Source: Ulva prolifera (lineage: Eukaryota; Chlorophyta; Ulvophyceae; Ulvales; Ulvaceae). From it: a stretch of DNA of 64,000 nt. The notes beneath the pieces were generated by a model. The model saw nothing but the letters and a program-made list of their open reading frames with translations. It ran no database searches and was not told the origin of the DNA. Within the stretch, counting starts at the first letter, position 1; each line of letters begins with the position of its first letter. Below, one piece after another: positions 6,387-34,669 of the stretch. Location: contig CM041196.1 in the NCBI GenBank assembly GCA_023078555.1, forward strand, positions 10,434,985 through 10,498,984. The letters are read 5' to 3'. Position numbers and translations under genes: made by a program.

Positions 6387-9300
6387 TCATTCCTGCGGCA
6401 GCAGCGTCGAAGTGTCGGCTTCCACCACACAACCGCTCGGCACCACCCGCTGCGCCCGTGCAACCTCCCCCACAGCTAACGCGCCGCACTGCATCACATT
6501 CAGCGAGCGCAGCTCAGTAAGGCCACCCAGGTCCACCGGCAACGCCTTAAGCCCCTTGCACCACTTCAGGTTCAGCATCGTGAGCCCCCCGATGTTGCAC
6601 ATGCTATCCGGCAGCGCCGTGAGTGCATAGCAGCGCTCCAGCACGAGCGCGTGCAGGCCGGCCATCCCACCGAGGTCCGCCGGAAGCGCCTTAAGGCACT
6701 TACACCACGTCAGGTTGAGCACCTCGAGATTACGCAGCTCCGGCAGCCGCGGCGGCAGCACGGCGAGCGCCCTGCACCACTTCAGGTTGAGAGACGTCAG
6801 CGCGGCCAGCTCGCAGCAGGCCTCCGGCAGCGCTGTGAGCGCGTAGCAGCGCTCGAGCACGAGGGACTCGAGTGCCTGCAGCTGCCCGATCTCCTCCGGC
6901 AGCGAGATCATCGCCTTGCACCACTTGACGCTGAGCACGCGCAACTCCGCCATCCCGCCGACGCTCCCCGGCAGCGCTGTGAGGCCCTCGCACTGCTCCA
7001 GGTCGAGCTCCTGCAGCCGCTGGAGGTCGCCGAGCCGGGCTGGCAGCTGAGTCAGCGCGGTGCAGTCCACGAGGCGCAGCACGCGCAGCGCGGCACAGTC
7101 CCCAACGCTCTCCGGCAGCGCGGCCAGCGCGCCGCAGCGCGACGCGTCCAGCACCTCCAGGTGGCTCAGCCCCCCGAGGCGCTCCGGAAGCTGAGTCAGT
7201 GCAGAACACCCCGAGATATCGAGGGACTGCATCCGGGCCGCATTGCCGAGGCGCTCCGGCAGCGCTTCGAGGGCCGTACACTCGCGCAGGGTCAGGGTCT
7301 GCAGGTCGGAGCAGTCGCCGATGCTGTCGGGTAAAGCTGAGAGGCTCGCGCAACCCGACAGGTCCAGCTCACGCATCGCCGTGAGCTCGCCGAGGCGCTC
7401 CGGGAGCACAGCGAGGCGCGAACACCCGGCGAGCCGCAGCACCTCCACCTGCGCAGCCCCCCGCATCTCCGGCAGCCCCTTCAGACCCCGGCAGTGCGAC
7501 ACGTCCAGCACGCGCAGGGACTGCATGTCCCCTACGTCGTGTGGCAGCACCTCAAACCCGGCGCAGCGCGCAGCGCACAGCGTGCGCAGTGCGGTGAGCC
7601 CGCCGAGCGCCGCGGGTGCGTCGAGCCGCGGGCAGTCCCGCACCGAGAGCTGCTGCAGCGCGGTCAAGTCCGTGAGCCGCGCGGGCAGCGCGCTCAGCGC
7701 GCGGCACGCCGCGGCGTCAAACACGCGCAGCTCCCCGCAGTCCCCGAGCCGCTCCGGCAGCGCGGGCAGCTGCTTGCAGCCGCGCAGGATGAGTACCTCG
7801 AGCATGCGGAGGTCGCCGATCGCATCCGGCAGCTCGGCGAACGCGCCCCCTGCGAGGGACAGAAAGCGGAGACAGCCGCACGCAAGGGCCTCTGAGAGCG
7901 CGGCCTCGCCGCCGCAGCGCAGGTGCAGCAGCGTGCGGAGGCTGCCGGCCTTTCCGGATGGCACTACGGCCGAGAGGGTGCCGCCGCGCGGCACGCTCGC
8001 GTGCAGGACCGCCGCGTCGTCGTCGCTGCGCCGCCGCGGCCACAGCGACTTGGCGCGCGCCGTCAGTGACACCGCCCGCTCCGGCGCAACCGTCCCCGGC
8101 CGCAGGCGGCGGCCGCCGCCGCCGTCCGCCTCCGCCATAGCTCCCCGCAGGTATACGAAGCCCGCCCGCGCCGCCGCCTCCGCACACACGATCTGCTGCA
8201 GCACGTCATGCATGAAGCACAGGCCCCCCGCGTCGCGTGTGATCATCCGCCGCTGCAGCAGCTCATGCATCTGCATCGCCGCGCGCGGGGCCGCCTCCTC
8301 GCACGGCAGCGGCGTCTGCGCCGCCCACAGCGCCTCCAGCTCCTGCTCGGGCACCCGCGCACCCCCAGGGTACGCCGCCCAGTGCAACAAGCACTCCTGC
8401 AGAGTTGGCGGCAGCACGTCGTAGCTCAGCTTACACTGCTGCGCGATCGTGGCGTCCACGTCCTCCGCCGTGTCCACCCCGCTGTGATCCCGCAGCTGCA
8501 GCCGAACCTGCCCCCATAGCCACCCAGACCGGCCGCGCAGCGCCGCGCCGACCTGCTGCAGCACCAGCGGCACCGGCACACACGCAGCCGCGACGGCCTG
8601 ATACGGCGGCGAGTCTCCGTCACGGCCGGCGGCCAGCGCGGTGTCCAGGGGGGGCGCGGGTGTCGCGTGCGCGCGGAAGAGGTCCTCCGCGTCCGCGGCG
8701 CACAGCGTGGGCACGCGGACCAAGGAGAGGTCCGGGAGGAGGGGCCGGCCGTCTGCGTGCTGGAGGGTGGGTTCGTGGCGCGTGGTGATGAGGAGGCGGC
8801 TGTCCTGGTGCGCGGTGGCACCCTGCGTCGCAAAGTCCAGCAGCGCGATGTCCTCCTGCATGCATGGCGTTCACTCGCTGTCGCATGCCGGTTGTTGACT
8901 CGCTGAAGAGTGCGTCACACACGCTCAGGCGATGATGCGAAAAAGTCATGCCGGAGCGGCGGGCAGCGAACGGCGACAGGAGCCCAGGTTGAGCGAATAT
9001 ACTTCTTGTTATGGCCAGATTCCGGACATATACGCTTCTTCATTCATCAATTTGACGATGATAGCCATCAGGTCCGGAACGGGCCATGCATGTGTGCGGG
9101 CCCTCGCATGGGTTCACCCCCATGCCATGCTGCGCCTCGTGCGATGCACAGGCGCTGGGCGGCGATGACAGCATCGCTCGCACTCACCGTGACCGGCACT
9201 CACCGTGACAGCATCGCTCGCACTCACCACTCACCGTGACCGGGCGGCGCGGACTGACTGTCTCGCTGCCCGATCACGCCGTGGGGGGCTGTTCGCGAGG

Positions 9301-10778
9301 GTGCCGGTGGTGAATGAGATGGTCAGCCGTGTTCACCACCGGCACCGACAGGAGCAGTCCCCTACGGGAACAGCCCCCACGGCGTGCAGACTGACGCTCT
9401 GCGGGGGTGAGCAACACAGCAGCTGCGCCGGGGGTGCCACGGCTCAGCCCCAACCATTTGCCAGCGGTGCCTCATGCTGTGGCGCGCAGCGCGACAGCCG
9501 CCGGCGGCAACCAGCTTGCCGGGCACACCCAGCCACCCGGCACAACCCAAACCCCCTGTGTGCTCACGACAACTCCATGCGTGACCAGGTTTGTACACCG
9601 GATGTTTCAAGTCGCATTGCGCTCAATGTGGTCATCCAGCAAAAAACGCGATCCACTACAATGGGGTTTGTCTAAGTCTTTTGCTGTGATGAGATTTGGT
9701 TATTGCTATGGTGGCAGCCGGTCGCTCTTTGGCTTCTTGTATTTGTTTGCTTTGCCATATGATGGCCCGGTATGTGTAACCTTGTGACTACAAGGGGGAA
9801 CCGTCCGGGATGCCGCACCTGCCTCCAGACGTCGTCGAGCACCAGCAGCACGTGCAGCTCCTGCTGCGTGAGGGCTCTCTGCAGCTCCGCCAGGCCCTCC
9901 TCCGCCGTCTCAAACGCGAGTGCCGTCTCCGGCAGCAGCACGGCCGCCGCATGCTGCAGCAGCGCCACCGGGTCGGGGTCCCGGCCGACGGTCAGGAACA
10001 CCGAGCAGCCCGCGAAGCGGCCGCGCAGGCGGTCAAACACGCGCCGCACGACCGCCGTCTTGCCGGCGCCGGCGATGCCGATGACGCCGAGCTGGCGGCA
10101 CCGCTTCGCCGCCGCCTCCGCCTCCGTCAGGAGCCCGTGGTAGTCGCGGAAGTGGTCCGGCTGCGCGGCCGCTGCCGCGGCCGGGCCGGCGGCGGCAGCC
10201 GCCTTGCCGCCGTGGTTCGCGATGAGGCCGAGGGTGGCGTCGCGGCGGCTGCCATGCATGTGCTGCTCGAGCGCGGCGTGTGCTGCGCGGACCTCCTCGA
10301 GGCGGGCGTGCTCGCCGAAGCGCTCCAGCGCGCCCCGCACCGCTGCGAGCTGCTGCGTGTGCTGCGCCCGGCGCACGATGTCCCACTTGCGTGTGCTCTT
10401 GCACCTCAGGCAGAGGTCGTGCGCCTGCGTAATGAGCTGCCGCAGAGTCGCGTAGTCGTTCCACAGGTGCTGGTGCTTGGCCCATGCCATGTGCGGCCCC
10501 TCTACCAGGGCTGAGAGCAGAGTCAAGTACTTCGGGAACACATCGCCACCGGTCAGTCGATCAAGCAGCCCGTCGAGCCTGTCGCGCTCCTTGCGGCAGG
10601 CGTACGCGCCAGAGGTCTGGGTCTTGAGAACTTGCTTTCCTGGGCTTGGAGTCGCATCAGGAGGCAGCTGGTCAACGACGCCCAGGCCGTCCTCGACCAC
10701 TGCATCCCGCAACTGAGAGACGGCGGAGCCCAGCGTCTGCCAGCCAATCAACGCAAGAGATGACTCGGGCGAACGCAT
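6387..10778 (-). CDS. NLR-type NB-ARC leucine-rich repeat protein with RPW8-like N-terminus
   Basis: Two exons, 10778-9819 and 8855-6387, join in phase 0 into 1142 residues. The GT-AG intron (8856-9818) falls exactly between kinase-2 and RNBS-B. Order: an N-terminal helical region (about 60-172) with a C-x2-C-x4-W pattern like the CC-R/RPW8 domain of ADR1/NRG1 helper NLRs; P-loop GIAGAGKT (234-241); kinase-2 LLVLDDVW (311-318); RNBS-B SRLLITTR (339-346); GLPL-like VPLVLQQVGAAL (415-426); RNBS-D-like LSYDVLP (463-469); MHDV (535-538); then 19 repeats of 24 residues (about 662-1118) with the plant-type pattern LPxxLGxLxxLxxLxLxxC. In plants this architecture senses pathogens and switches by nucleotide exchange; that role is inferred here. 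The alanine-rich linker at 192-206 is low complexity. The long plus-strand frames over these exons are GC-driven shadows. Confidence 0.92.
9168..9241. repeat. Imperfect direct repeats in the NLR intron
   Basis: GACAGCATCGCTCGCACTCA recurs, mixed with shorter CACTCACCGTGACCG units. The block lies just 5' (plus strand) of the nested hairpin. Confidence 0.75.
9275..9386. repeat. Nested inverted repeat in the NLR intron
   Basis: Outer arms 9275-9294 and 9368-9386 are complementary except for one bulged G. Inner arms 9301-9314 and 9332-9345 (GTGCCGGTGGTGAA and its complement) pair perfectly over 14 bp around a 17-nt loop. The whole could fold as a hairpin of about 112 nt on either strand. It could be a foldback element, a small-RNA precursor or a remnant of a transposon. 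Confidence 0.75.
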
Positions 10779-23025: not shown

Positions 23026-26000
23026 CGAGTGCCGGCTGTGGCCGGGCGAGTACATGAGGCCGGCGATGCGGTCCTCATGCTGCGCAGTTGTGTGTTGCAC
23101 GAGCTTCACTGCATGGTCGAGCCGCTCCATGCGCTCCTCCAGGTCCGTGATCGCCTCGTCCGTCTCGAACCGACCGGCCTCGTTCCGCATCTGCTGTTCC
23201 CTGCATGCGTACATGCTGCGCTTTCGAGCACCTGTTTGCGCCGCACACATCAACATGTACTCGACGACAGGTTGCGATTGACAAGACACAGAACGCAGGC
23301 GTCCACCAACCTGACCGTGTCCATGATGCATGGAGATCGTGCATTTGTGCAAGCTGCGGGGCTCACCTGATGTCCCCGAGCCCGGGTCCGAGCCCGGGCC
23401 CCCGGTCGTGGTCATCGCTGCCGAATGTGTGGCCGAAAGAGCCCGGCGCATCAGAGAGCGCAGCACCGCGCGCCTTGATCGCGTCCACGTCGGCACGCAG
23501 CGCCTTGACGGCCTTGGTTGACGCCTCCACCGCCGCATTCATCGTCTCGAGCCGCTCCGTGACCATTGAATTCTCCAGAGTGGCTGAGGGGCCGCTGTAG
23601 ATGTTTGTGTAGATCGCCGCCTTGCTCGCGGTGACCTCGCGCTGTGAAGTGCTCCGCTGCGGCTCCTTCGGGGGCCCGACCATGAGGTCTGACGTGATGT
23701 CCAAGCTCCTGCGCATGTATGCATGAGCTTCATGCATGAAGACATCTGCACAGAGCGACGACAACGACAGCTGCAATCACCACACACGACAGCAAGGGAG
23801 ACACGAGAGAGCGGGGGGTGCGCACGCATCCTCAGGGTAGCTGCTGTACGCCTCAGGGGTTCGTGGCGGCGACGCCGACGCGCCCGAGCCACCCTGTGCG
23901 GGTTCCCCGTCCGCACCCTGCCCCTTGCTCCATCCGGCCACTTGCGACTCGATCGCGCCGACCTTCCGGCACACCTCGTCCAGCCTGTCCACCACCTCCT
24001 CCGGCACCGCCGCCGATGAGCCCGCCCAGTGCTCCGGCGTTGACTGAAGGGACCGCGCCGCCGCGGGCCGCACCGTGTCACCGCCCGCGAGCTCCTCCAG
24101 CCGCTCGAGGGCGTCATCAAGTTCCACAAACTTAAACTTCGCCGTCGCCTGGAACTCGCGCAGCTCCTCGAGGTCGTCGCGCACGGTGTCAAAGCCAGGG
24201 CCACGGAACGCCTGCACCTCGGCGACAGAGGCGCGCAGCGCCTCGACCTCGGCCGTCACGGCGGCCACCGCCTCCGCGGCGCCCATCGCCGCAGCCGCGT
24301 CTGCGGCCTTGGCTGCCGCGTCGGCGGTCGCCGCCTCCGCGGCAATCGCGGCGGCCTCCGCCGCCGCGTCCGCCTCCGCAGCGCGCACGTCGTGCTCCGC
24401 GGCGACGGAAGCGCTGCGCGACACCGGCGCTGCCGCCGTGGCGTCGGCCGCGGTGCGGCGCAGCTGCGCGACGTCGGCAGCCGCCGCATCGGCCACATCC
24501 GCGGCGTCCGCTGCGGCGGCGCGAGCGGCCTTCGCCGCCGCCTCGGCGGACTCCGCCACCTCAGCCACGTCCTGCAGCTGCGCCTCCAGCCCCTCGAGCT
24601 TGGCCTCTGTGTCTCTCTGCCACTCTTTCCCCCCAGACACGTCCTTCCACAGGCTCTCCACGTGCCCCTTCAGCTCCCGCAGCTCCTCCACACCCTCCTT
24701 CCGCCCCGCGGCGGCCGCCTCTGCAGCTTCTGCCGTCGCCGACGCGACCGTCCGCACCGCCGAGTCGATCCCGTTCAATCGCTCGCTCACCAGCGCGATG
24801 CTCTTGCTGAACCCAGTCATCTGCTTCTGGTCTCCTTCCCGTGTCGCCTGGATCTCCTGCAGCGCAGACTTGGCGTGCCGCAGCGCGGACTGCACGTCGG
24901 ACACCTTCTTCTCCAGCGGCGCCAGGTCTACCCGGGGCGCCTCGGGCGTCTTGGCAGGTTGCTCAACCTTGTGGTCCGATGACAGCATTGCGCGGGGTCC
25001 GGGAGGGGTCGTTGCCGGCGGGGACTTTGGGATGGCACTGCCGTCGTAGCGATCCACCCGCGCAGCGCCCGACGTGGACGCGCGCTGCGCGCGCGCCGCG
25101 GCCGCATTCGCCATCTCCACCGCACCATCGGCGGACGCCGGCGGCGGCGTGTGCGCGTGCCGCACCACCGGCGGCTCCGCCGACGTGCGGATCGCGCGCA
25201 GGCTGGTCGGCGGGGAGTACCGGCTGACCGGCGTGCGCGAGCGCCGCTGCGGCGACCTCGACGCCGGCGGCGGCGTGCCGCCGTCGCGCGCGCCGCGGCG
25301 CGACGCGTGCGGGCTGCGGTGCGGCACACCCGGCGTCGACGTGCTGCGCGGGCGCGCGGTGCGTCCAAAAGCGACCCCCGCCTGCCGACTCGGCGATGCG
25401 CCGTCCGCCGACATCCGGCTATCCACGCCGACGCCACGCAGCGGCGACACCGGCGGCGGCCCGTACATCGGCTCGCTGCTCTGCGGGCCGCCGCGCTGCA
25501 TCGGGAAGTTTTGGTATGCATGGATGCCGGGGCCGCCGATGAAGGAGCCGTGGCCGCCGAGGGATGACGGCCCGCTGCCGAGGACGGACGGCCCGCCGCC
25601 GATGTAAGACGCACCGCCGCCCATCTGTGACAGCGCGTCCGGCTGTGCCATTGTGCTTGGCTTCGTGCGGCATGCATGCGCTGTGTCTTGCATCAGTTGG
25701 TACAGCTCCGGTCGGTCCTGCAGCCACGCTCACGGGCACTACGACGGGCACTACCGAGGTGCACGGGTTCGGATTGCTGTCACTGCTTACAATTTTATAG
25801 CGTGAAGACTGTGAGGTTCACACCAGCCGCACGGGCGCAGCCACACATGGTGGCTTTGTCCTTGTAACACGCAGGCGCAGCTATCAGCTATCATGCACTC
25901 ACGCACTCGAATCTGTGATGTGTCTGATCACAGCGTGCGAGTACATATATGTCACAAAGGAGTGCTGTGAGCTCACGAACCCTCATCACAACGGCTACAC

Positions 26001-32576: not shown

Positions 32577-33305
32577 CAGGTGTCGATGATAGGCCCCCAG
32601 TCCATCCCAGCCTACCTCCGAGACCCCACAAGCCCTGTCCCTGACCCCCCCCATCACGCCGACTCCCACAGATGACATCACTAGCTTCACCCCCCGCCCT
32701 GGAGGCGTTGCCATCGCAGACCACGGAGTCATTCCACGATACTGCCCCACCCCCGCCCCTCGCAGGCCCCCCCCTCCCCCTGGCCCGGAGACGCCTACCT
32801 CTGAAGCTCAACGCAGCCCGCAGCCCAGATCTGCGCCATTATGTTCCCACAGGATAGCTTGGGGGTTCTATTACGCCTTCTGTGTGAGAGGCGAAACTCA
32901 GCTCAGCTTCAGCGACGGCTTGGCTCAGCATCAACGCCTGCTGAACTACCCCATCGTACAGAATACGTGTGCTGTTGCGGGGCAGTGATCTTCTCCCCGA
33001 GGCACAGGCCCTGTCTGGACGCGAAGCATGCACGGGGTGCTCTGCAGTCCGTGTGTGCTGTCAAGGCTAGCGTGCAATGCCAGGAAATCACGGACGTAGC
33101 CTCCTTGGAGGGAAGCCGGCTATTGCAACTGTTCACCTGGCTTATGGGCCATCATAGCTGTCCAACATCTGCAGCTGAGGTGACAGCACTGGTCCAGTGG
33201 GCTGACCTGGGTGCATCTTGAGTTCAGTCAGGGCCGTGCAGGTCGTATCTTGTTGCAGATATCCTTGTGGCACACCCTTCCAGTTGCATGGGCATCACGA
33301 GGGCA
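32577..33305. other. 3' flank of engB
   Basis: The stretch at 32580-32830 is proline-coding, C-rich low-complexity sequence. An open frame at 32841-33221 (+), ending AAEVTALVQWADLGAS, looks mildly protein-like but has no known relative. I do not call a gene. Confidence 0.4.
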
Positions 33306-33540
33306 GCTGGGATGCTGTTCCTTCCATGTGTCGCTCCGTGGCGATGGCGCTCGGATGCTGTTCCTTCCATGTGTCGCTCGGTGGCGAGGGCAGCTGGGAT
33401 GCTGTTCCTTCCATGTGTCGCTCCGTGGCGATGGCGCTCGGATGCTGTTCCTTCCATGTGTCGCTCGGTGGCGAGGGCAGCTGGGATGCTGTTCCTTCCA
33501 TGTGTCGCACGGTGGCGATGGCGCTGGGCATGCTGCTCCT
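33306..33540. repeat. Minisatellite with alternating 43/44-bp units (87-bp dimer)
   Basis: GATGCTGTTCCTTCCATGTG starts at 33311, 33354, 33398, 33441 and 33485, and a degenerate sixth unit follows near 33529. Spacing alternates 43, 44, 43, 44. Units alternate between a CTCCGTGGCGATGGCG and a CTCGGTGGCGAGGGCAG ending, so the true period is an 87-bp dimer. Because 87 is a multiple of three, frames stay open on both strands, which explains the stacked open frames here. Confidence 0.93.
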
Positions 33541-34576: not shown

Positions 34577-34669
34577 GGCGGTATGGCCCAATGGATAAGG
34601 CATCTGTCTACGGACATGCTTAGCATGCTTGGTAACAGAAGATTCCAGGTTCGATCCCTGGTTCCGTCA
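34577..34669 (+). tRNA. tRNA-Arg(ACG) with 20-nt intron
   Basis: Acceptor stem 34577-34583 pairs with 34662-34668, with one G-U pair and one T-T mismatch at the sixth position, and A34669 is the discriminator. The D arm GCC/GGC surrounds AATGGATAA. The anticodon stem is TCTGT/ACAGA (34603-34607, 34635-34639), the anticodon ACG is 34610-34612, and the T arm is CCAGG-TTCGATC-CCTGG (34645-34661). A 20-nt intron (34614-34633) sits at the canonical place one base 3' of the anticodon. The body closely matches eukaryotic tRNA-Arg(ACG). The acceptor mismatch leaves some doubt about whether it is fully functional. Confidence 0.88.

Follow-up and report, generated by a model that had tools for sequence, protein, structure and literature searches.

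A 64,000-nucleotide stretch of the Ulva prolifera genome (contig CM041196.1, positions 10,434,985 to 10,498,984; hereafter, the window) carries what reads, from its sequence, as an intact chlorophyte gene for a nucleotide-binding leucine-rich repeat (NLR)-type receptor, combining an NB-ARC domain that has nucleotide-binding motifs and an MHD motif with 19 leucine-rich repeats (LRRs). Taken as a whole, the explanation that we favour, and hold to be rather likely, is that of an intracellular chlorophyte NLR, a divergent and isolated member of its family, with a coiled-coil (CC)-type N-terminus and a switch resembling that of plant NLRs. The N-terminus itself is probably a CC-type four-helix bundle and would fall into the wide group formed by plant CC, CC-R/RPW8 and related domains, with CC-R as its closest match in sequence.

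The gene was predicted as two exons of 960 and 2469 nt, the first beginning with ATG and the second including the stop codon, which join into a protein of 1142 amino acids with no internal stops (Table 1). The exons provide 320 and 822 open codons and have a GC content at third codon positions (GC3) of 0.87 and 0.88, respectively. The ends of the intron read GTGCGG...CATGCAG. The exon junction is located between kinase-2 and RNBS-B, and the predicted splice is supported because 19 paralogous frames of the same genome read without interruption at this site. A first-pass annotation of the sequence had proposed a complete NLR gene between positions 6387 and 10778; these coordinates proved right, and the joined frame contains both NB-ARC and LRR regions.

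In Pfam searches, the joined protein matched NB-ARC at residues 229-447 (E 8.3e-12, above the cut-off) and LRR_14 (E 1.5e-54). The canonical NB-ARC motifs, from the P-loop through kinase-2, RNBS-B, GLPL-like and RNBS-D-like to MHD, were located in the order given by the first-pass annotation, the GLPL and RNBS-D motifs being divergent forms, and its figure of 19 LRRs was matched by a pattern scan of the joined protein (predicted splice), which counted 19 consecutive units of 23-24 residues each. The best PDB chains for the NB-ARC region were plant resistance proteins (MLA13, 7e-15, and NRCs), and a profile of the paralogs ranked MLA13 (2e-28), an RPW8 protein (1e-26) and ROQ1 (2e-26) first, with APAF-1 well behind (2e-12). 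The identity of a TIR-type NLR (TNL) was considered and rejected: Pfam found no TIR match in the protein, and its kinase-2 reads LLVLDDVW, as opposed to DDVN in ROQ1 and DEVD in RPP1.

Table 1. Predicted features of the NLR-type gene, with positions numbered along the window
Feature	Residues	Positions	Strand
Exon 1: N-terminal helical domain, P-loop, kinase-2	1-320	9819..10778	-
N-terminal domain, all-helical in low-confidence models	1-231	10086..10778	-
Segment that aligns with RPW8 positions 65-110 and with the CC-R hidden Markov model, including the W of RKWDIV	109-154	10317..10454	-
P-loop GIAGAGKT	234	10056..10079	-
Kinase-2 LLVLDDVW, final W as in RNL and CNL chains	311	9825..9848	-
Intron, 963 nt, GT-AG, GC 0.60; not at that site in 19 distinct aligned paralogous frames		8856..9818	-
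Exon 2: RNBS-B through MHD, linker, LRRs and stop codon	321-1142	6387..8855	-
RNBS-B SRLLITTR	339	8778..8801	-
GLPL-like CVPVPLVL	412	8559..8582	-
RNBS-D-like CLLHWAAYPGG	475	8361..8393	-
MHD motif MHDVL	535	8199..8213	-
19 LRR units, period 23-24 residues (ends derived from unit positions)	about 649-1101	6513..7871	-

Searches of the genome (88.9 Mb in 44 contigs) revealed at least 33 NB-ARC matches, counted exon by exon and with a few short fragments among them. Most occur in clusters, with 10 matches in 0.3 Mb on contig C6, 11 in 0.22 Mb on C4 and 5 in 0.2 Mb on C1, and further matches were found at the end of C6 and on C8, C3 and C31. Within this sizeable NB-ARC family, the window gene is divergent and isolated: it is located at 10.44 Mb on C1, more than 5 Mb away from the C1 cluster. 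The presence of an NLR in a green alga, as put forward by the first-pass annotation, is supported by the NB-ARC and LRR matches, by the family and by the RuBisCO small subunit of the genome, on account of which the host was taken to be a chlorophyte. This subunit scored highest (ca. 100 bits) with PDB entries 1ir2, 8q04, 1uw9, 7jfo and 1gk8, presumably from Chlamydomonas and Chlorella, followed by 1aa1 (84 bits) and 1bwv (50 bits), which we take to be from spinach and a red alga, respectively. Two pairs of NB-ARC matches with identical scores and frame lengths (genome G000, C1:4.82 Mb and C6:36 kb, and C4:7.465 and 7.500 Mb) suggest a recent segmental duplication, with one copy close to a contig end.

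Paralogs were compared as a set of 20 regions with one long open reading frame (ORF) apiece, of which 19 are distinct, L027 and L028 being alike over the compared parts. The NB-ARC is open in all 20 ORFs, with 214 to 305 residues from the upstream stop to the P-loop, and the number of LRR-like units per ORF ranges from 0 to 55 (n=20; one ORF is truncated where its stretch ends). The ORF with 55 units (L021:4016-10000) is the one cut by its stretch, and its open frame in the genome search measures 2458 residues. For 10 close paralogs (45 pairs), the median ratio of nonsynonymous to synonymous differences (pN/pS) was 0.52 in the N-terminal domain, 0.62 in the nucleotide-binding region and 0.71 in the LRRs, with wide and overlapping ranges; by medians rather than by a formal test, this would be a relaxed or diversifying pattern. 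A genome search for TIR domains, which covered PF01582 only, returned nothing at the cut-off and a single match at E 0.07. Because no PF01582 match reached the cut-off, it seems improbable that this alga has a TIR-fed helper pathway like that of seed plants.

The divergence of the window gene raises the question of whether it is a decaying family member, with a frame that is still open but a function that is lost. Mean identity to the paralogs is 31% for the window protein versus 45% for L012, the NB-ARC branch is long (about 1.1-1.3 substitutions per site), and the CF.D and NFAT signatures of the paralogs are missing. When the window N-terminus was used as a genome query, the sole match up to E 10 was itself, so that no second copy was found. 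Decay is nevertheless regarded as very unlikely, given that both exons remain open, that the P-loop, kinase-2, RNBS-B and MHD motifs are intact, that the LRRs are regular and that GC3 is high. A composite paralog N-terminus matched 23 places in the genome, including 20 with E below 1e-5; the window N-terminus is not one of these 23. Outside the listed NB-ARC matches, a weak match to the N-terminal domain (G000, C4:7353301-7353462; E 0.027) lies in an open frame of 1484 residues.

The phylogenetic position of the NB-ARC was assessed in a tree of 48 sequences, in which 16 bacterial proteins obtained by scanning GTDB and 12 chains of plant NLRs accompany the window protein and 19 paralogs. Three chains of RPW8-type NLRs (RNLs) contain an unread gap, the bacterial set is a biased sample, having been retrieved with patterns of the algal family, and the references include no chlorophyte or bryophyte NLRs, so that the family cannot be dated from this tree. 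Regarding the reference chains, we take 6j5t to be ZAR1, 7crb to be RPP1, RGA1e to be Sr33, At5g66900 to be NRG1 and At5g04720 to be ADR1-L2, and the class labels RNL, CNL (CC-type NLR), TNL and Rx-type are likewise assumed from general background. The window NB-ARC joined the algal paralogs (support 98.9/99), and its exact place inside the algal clade is uncertain because its branch is long. With bacteria as the outgroup, the algal clade fell outside the land-plant TNL, RNL and CNL groups, with weak support. Approximately unbiased (AU) tests were run on 35 sequences, 13 of the 48 having been dropped as close relatives of others. The grouping of the window NB-ARC with RNLs was rejected (p 0.00026), as was a placement of the algal clade beside the bacterial L030, L032 and L034 (p 0.019); groupings of the algal clade with RNL (0.18), CNL (0.37), TNL (0.54) or RNL and CNL together (0.20) were not rejected. 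The outcome was the same in two runs without the window protein, one of which also left out NRG1 and two long bacterial branches (algal clade with RNL, 0.16 and 0.14). On the plant-type NB-ARC implied by the first-pass annotation, the answer is mixed: the window protein groups with its algal paralogs and the family appears to be placed between bacteria and land-plant NLRs, but TNL, CNL, RNL or all of them are inseparable as its sister.

The same annotation had raised the possibility of a helper-type architecture in this protein. Were it a true RPW8-type helper, and hence an orthologue of ADR1 or NRG1, its N-terminus would be expected to resemble RPW8/CC-R, as it weakly does, and the CF.D pattern in RNBS-D is common to RNLs and several of the paralogs. 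Yet the AU test rejects an RNL placement of the window NB-ARC, the RPW8 score of 13.5 bits is far below the cut-off of 30.4, and the window protein reads CLLHWAAYPGG and MHD where four RNL chains have CFL[DV].G.F.ED and QHD. Orthology with RNLs is therefore largely refuted and scarcely tenable, and the helper-type label is not supported for this protein.

An origin apart from that of land-plant NLRs has also to be weighed, in which NB-ARC and LRRs would have been fused independently in chlorophytes, with an NB-ARC derived from a bacterial STAND (signal transduction ATPases with numerous domains) ATPase. This is consistent with the intermediate position of the family in the trees, and horizontal transfer combined with convergence in chlorophytes is proposed in passages of Andolfo et al. 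2019 (PMC7145615). Against it stand the rejected placement beside one bacterial group (L030, L032, L034) and the PDB ranking, which prefers plant NLRs to APAF-1, and we consider such an origin improbable; a fusion of this kind could still work in the way proposed here for an intracellular NLR. Bacterial NB-ARC STAND proteins (L030-L045) share the NB-ARC motifs and 21-39% identity with the query in the best segment; they differ in occupying separate tree branches, these loci having been matched on NB-ARC only.

For the N-terminal domain, RPW8 was the sole Pfam family reported for window residues 1-231 (E 0.057). When 20 N-termini were scanned, those of the window protein and 19 paralogs, RPW8 was matched in five (the window protein, L014, L017, L019 and L029), more members than any other family, and the best of these sub-threshold matches (L017, E 0.0059) covers RPW8 positions 28-121. 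With a hidden Markov model (HMM) of CC-R built from ADR1, ADR1-L2 and NRG1, the window N-terminus scored 8.4 bits, compared with 4.7 for the best of 1217 decoys and 7.1 for the best of 10,000 shuffles, and 9 of the 20 paralogs exceeded the best decoy (a count that includes both L027 and its twin L028). An HMM of Rx-type CC domains (MLA13, Sr33, Sr35) gave the window no score and placed none of the 20 paralogs above the best decoy. In a separate run, the CC-R HMM scored 12 of 21 N-termini above every one of 1050 shuffles and the Rx-type HMM none, and reversed N-termini reached 2.8 at most. The window N-terminus probably belongs with those of the paralogs, as an algal family HMM built without it scored it at 14.0 bits, a value reached by none of the 1217 decoys and by 4 of the 10,000 shuffles. 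In phmmer searches, NRG1 matched paralog L017 with P 7e-7, and in the reciprocal search ADR1 was the top reference in all three builds of the algal HMM. The C-x2-C-x4-W motif of the first-pass annotation was recovered in part: the cysteine pair and the tryptophan are present, but the spacing is C-x2-C-x5-W (LCLRCKSTRKW), the paralogs do not conserve the cysteines, and many of them have a W two or three columns off. In the HMM alignment, the CC-R W is paired with that of the window protein, L015 and L017.

Several results weigh against a kinship with CC-R and favour an unrelated helical domain, whose likeness would be due to chance or to convergence of amphipathic helices and which may serve to recruit partners or to bind membranes by other means. 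No N-terminal Pfam match attains its cut-off in any of the 20 N-termini, and some other families match individual members with equally weak or better values (L27 in L023, E 0.0014; spectrin in L021, E 0.036). The paralogs are close kin, so that RPW8 matches among them are not independent, and the decoys were six-frame pieces not chosen as helical bundles. Comparisons with hhalign were not significant, whether of the algal family with CC-R (P 0.1, probability 0.6%) or of the N-terminal profile A1 with ADR1 (P 0.0089, probability 4.5%), and that of the algal family with Rx-type CC was not significant either. The window alone gave phmmer P values of 0.0058 with ADR1 and 0.0044 with ADR1-L2 and no match with NRG1, and the algal HMM also scored Sr33 and MLA13 weakly, about level with NRG1; MLA13 matched paralog L010 with P 0.0009. 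Genome-wide searches with RPW8 and Rx_N yielded no candidates, this first look being too coarse to show absence. In the other direction stand the CC-R scores above decoys and shuffles with no Rx-type counterpart, the NRG1 and ADR1 matches, and the fact that RPW8 is matched by more members than any other family and occupies the same place in land-plant RNLs. An unrelated domain is accordingly judged unlikely, though by no means negligible. The CC-R relationship advanced in the first-pass annotation stands as suggestive and not proven, with a CC-R score above all controls and RPW8 as the only Pfam family, but with sub-threshold and non-significant profile matches; that this is a CC-type domain with CC-R as its nearest relative is the likelier reading, albeit unproven. 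The likelihoods given to the various explanations do not add up to one, since an independent origin and a loss of function concern questions other than the N-terminal fold. Two PDB matches of profile A1 (E 0.57 and 1.3) and three NCBIfam families matching one N-terminus each (E 0.03 or more) were taken as chance.

Structure prediction gave a helical bundle, which speaks for a CC-type N-terminus, but the models show four helices at a pLDDT of only 50-58. A single-sequence model displays four long helices (pLDDT 58, pTM 0.54), and a model of residues 1-172 places helices, at low confidence, at 4-29, 55-77, 99-126 and 134-158. Foldseek searches with both models found nothing under E 0.001, the best structural matches being generic helical bundles, which again counts against a specific CC-R affinity. 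With the first model, the CC chain of potato Rx ranked sixth (E 0.63); with the second, no NLR domain was among the matches listed. The helix-propensity profile of the N-terminus showed nothing decisive.

In the main paralog clade, a glycine zipper precedes a conserved AGW within the first 60 N-terminal residues; it reads GENAGKAAGKAAG in L014, L015, L017-L019, L026 and L029, and a variant, GMAAGTAAG, is found in L011, L020 and L025. The GxxxGxxxG pattern occurs in 11 of the 20 paralogs, 10 of them in one main clade, and could mark a membrane-active first helix in these proteins. It is missing from the window protein and was not used as a membrane-helix signal there.

For an intracellular NLR with a CC-type N-terminus, a mode of action can be outlined by analogy with plant NLRs. 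The LRRs would keep the NB-ARC switch off in its ADP-bound state until a microbial cue frees it from their hold; the freed protein would then swap its nucleotide and oligomerise, and the clustered N-terminal helices would act at a membrane, leading to a death or defence response. The present data contribute only the parts to this mechanism, and a helper role for other receptors is unsupported. As with land-plant RNLs (ADR1, ADR1-L2, NRG1), the order is N-terminal domain, NB-ARC and LRR, kinase-2 ends with W, and the N-terminus scores best, below threshold, with RPW8/CC-R; the differences lie in an NB-ARC outside the RNL clade, in MHD instead of QHD and in another RNBS-D. With land-plant CNLs (MLA13, Sr35, ZAR1, NRCs), the window protein shares the kinase-2 W, an MHD-like motif and LRRs, and MLA13 is the top PDB match of its NB-ARC. 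In contrast, the MLA13/Sr33/Sr35 CC HMM gives it no score, and its NB-ARC is not nested among CNLs in maximum-likelihood trees, although a grouping of the algal clade with CNLs was not rejected.

According to passages of PMC8891106, the species with known NBS-LRR proteins include Chromochloris zofingiensis, Botryococcus braunii and a member of Ulva. The NLRs of C. zofingiensis, B. braunii and Ulva mutabilis, compared here by the descriptions in parts of PMC8891106 and PMC7145615, likewise combine NB-ARC and LRR, and those of C. zofingiensis are described as clustered, as most NB-ARC matches are in this genome. Section 5 of PMC10952240 attributes TIR-NLRs to C. zofingiensis, which differs from the lack of PF01582 matches at the cut-off here, and CC/RPW8-like four-helix N-termini to streptophyte algae. 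The NLRs with four-helix CC domains that parts of PMC11218826 present from Chara and non-flowering plants resemble the window protein in its low-confidence four-helix N-terminus, and N-terminal death assays are published there for Chara domains. The survey in PMC11218826 takes in two streptophyte algae, and the word chlorophyte is missing from its main text; in the titles, abstracts and passages of the open-licence literature, no chlorophyte NLR of the CC or RPW8 type was found described. The statement of the first-pass annotation that NLRs are rare and patchy in green algae fits these sources, as far as their passages go, but not the richness of this genome in NB-ARC genes. On a more far-reaching reading, which is held to be less likely than not, the repertoire would represent a chlorophyte expansion into a clustered, fast-changing set without detectable TIR NLRs, of which the window gene would be the deepest branch. 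If the CC-like N-terminus is true, CC-type executioners would either predate the split of the green lineage or have originated a second time, and an alga with such NLRs would offer a host in which to study what they detect.

Elsewhere in the window, a 650-codon open frame on the minus strand (23780-25729) shows weak matches to coiled-coil families (among them ATG16 and plant FPP), all below the cut-off. Positions 33298-33540 are occupied by a tandem array with a unit of 44/87 bases, the 44-base unit being present in 5.6 copies, and a tRNA gene was identified by Rfam at 34577-34669 on the plus strand (47.4 bits), for which ARAGORN called a two-base anticodon and no name was assigned.

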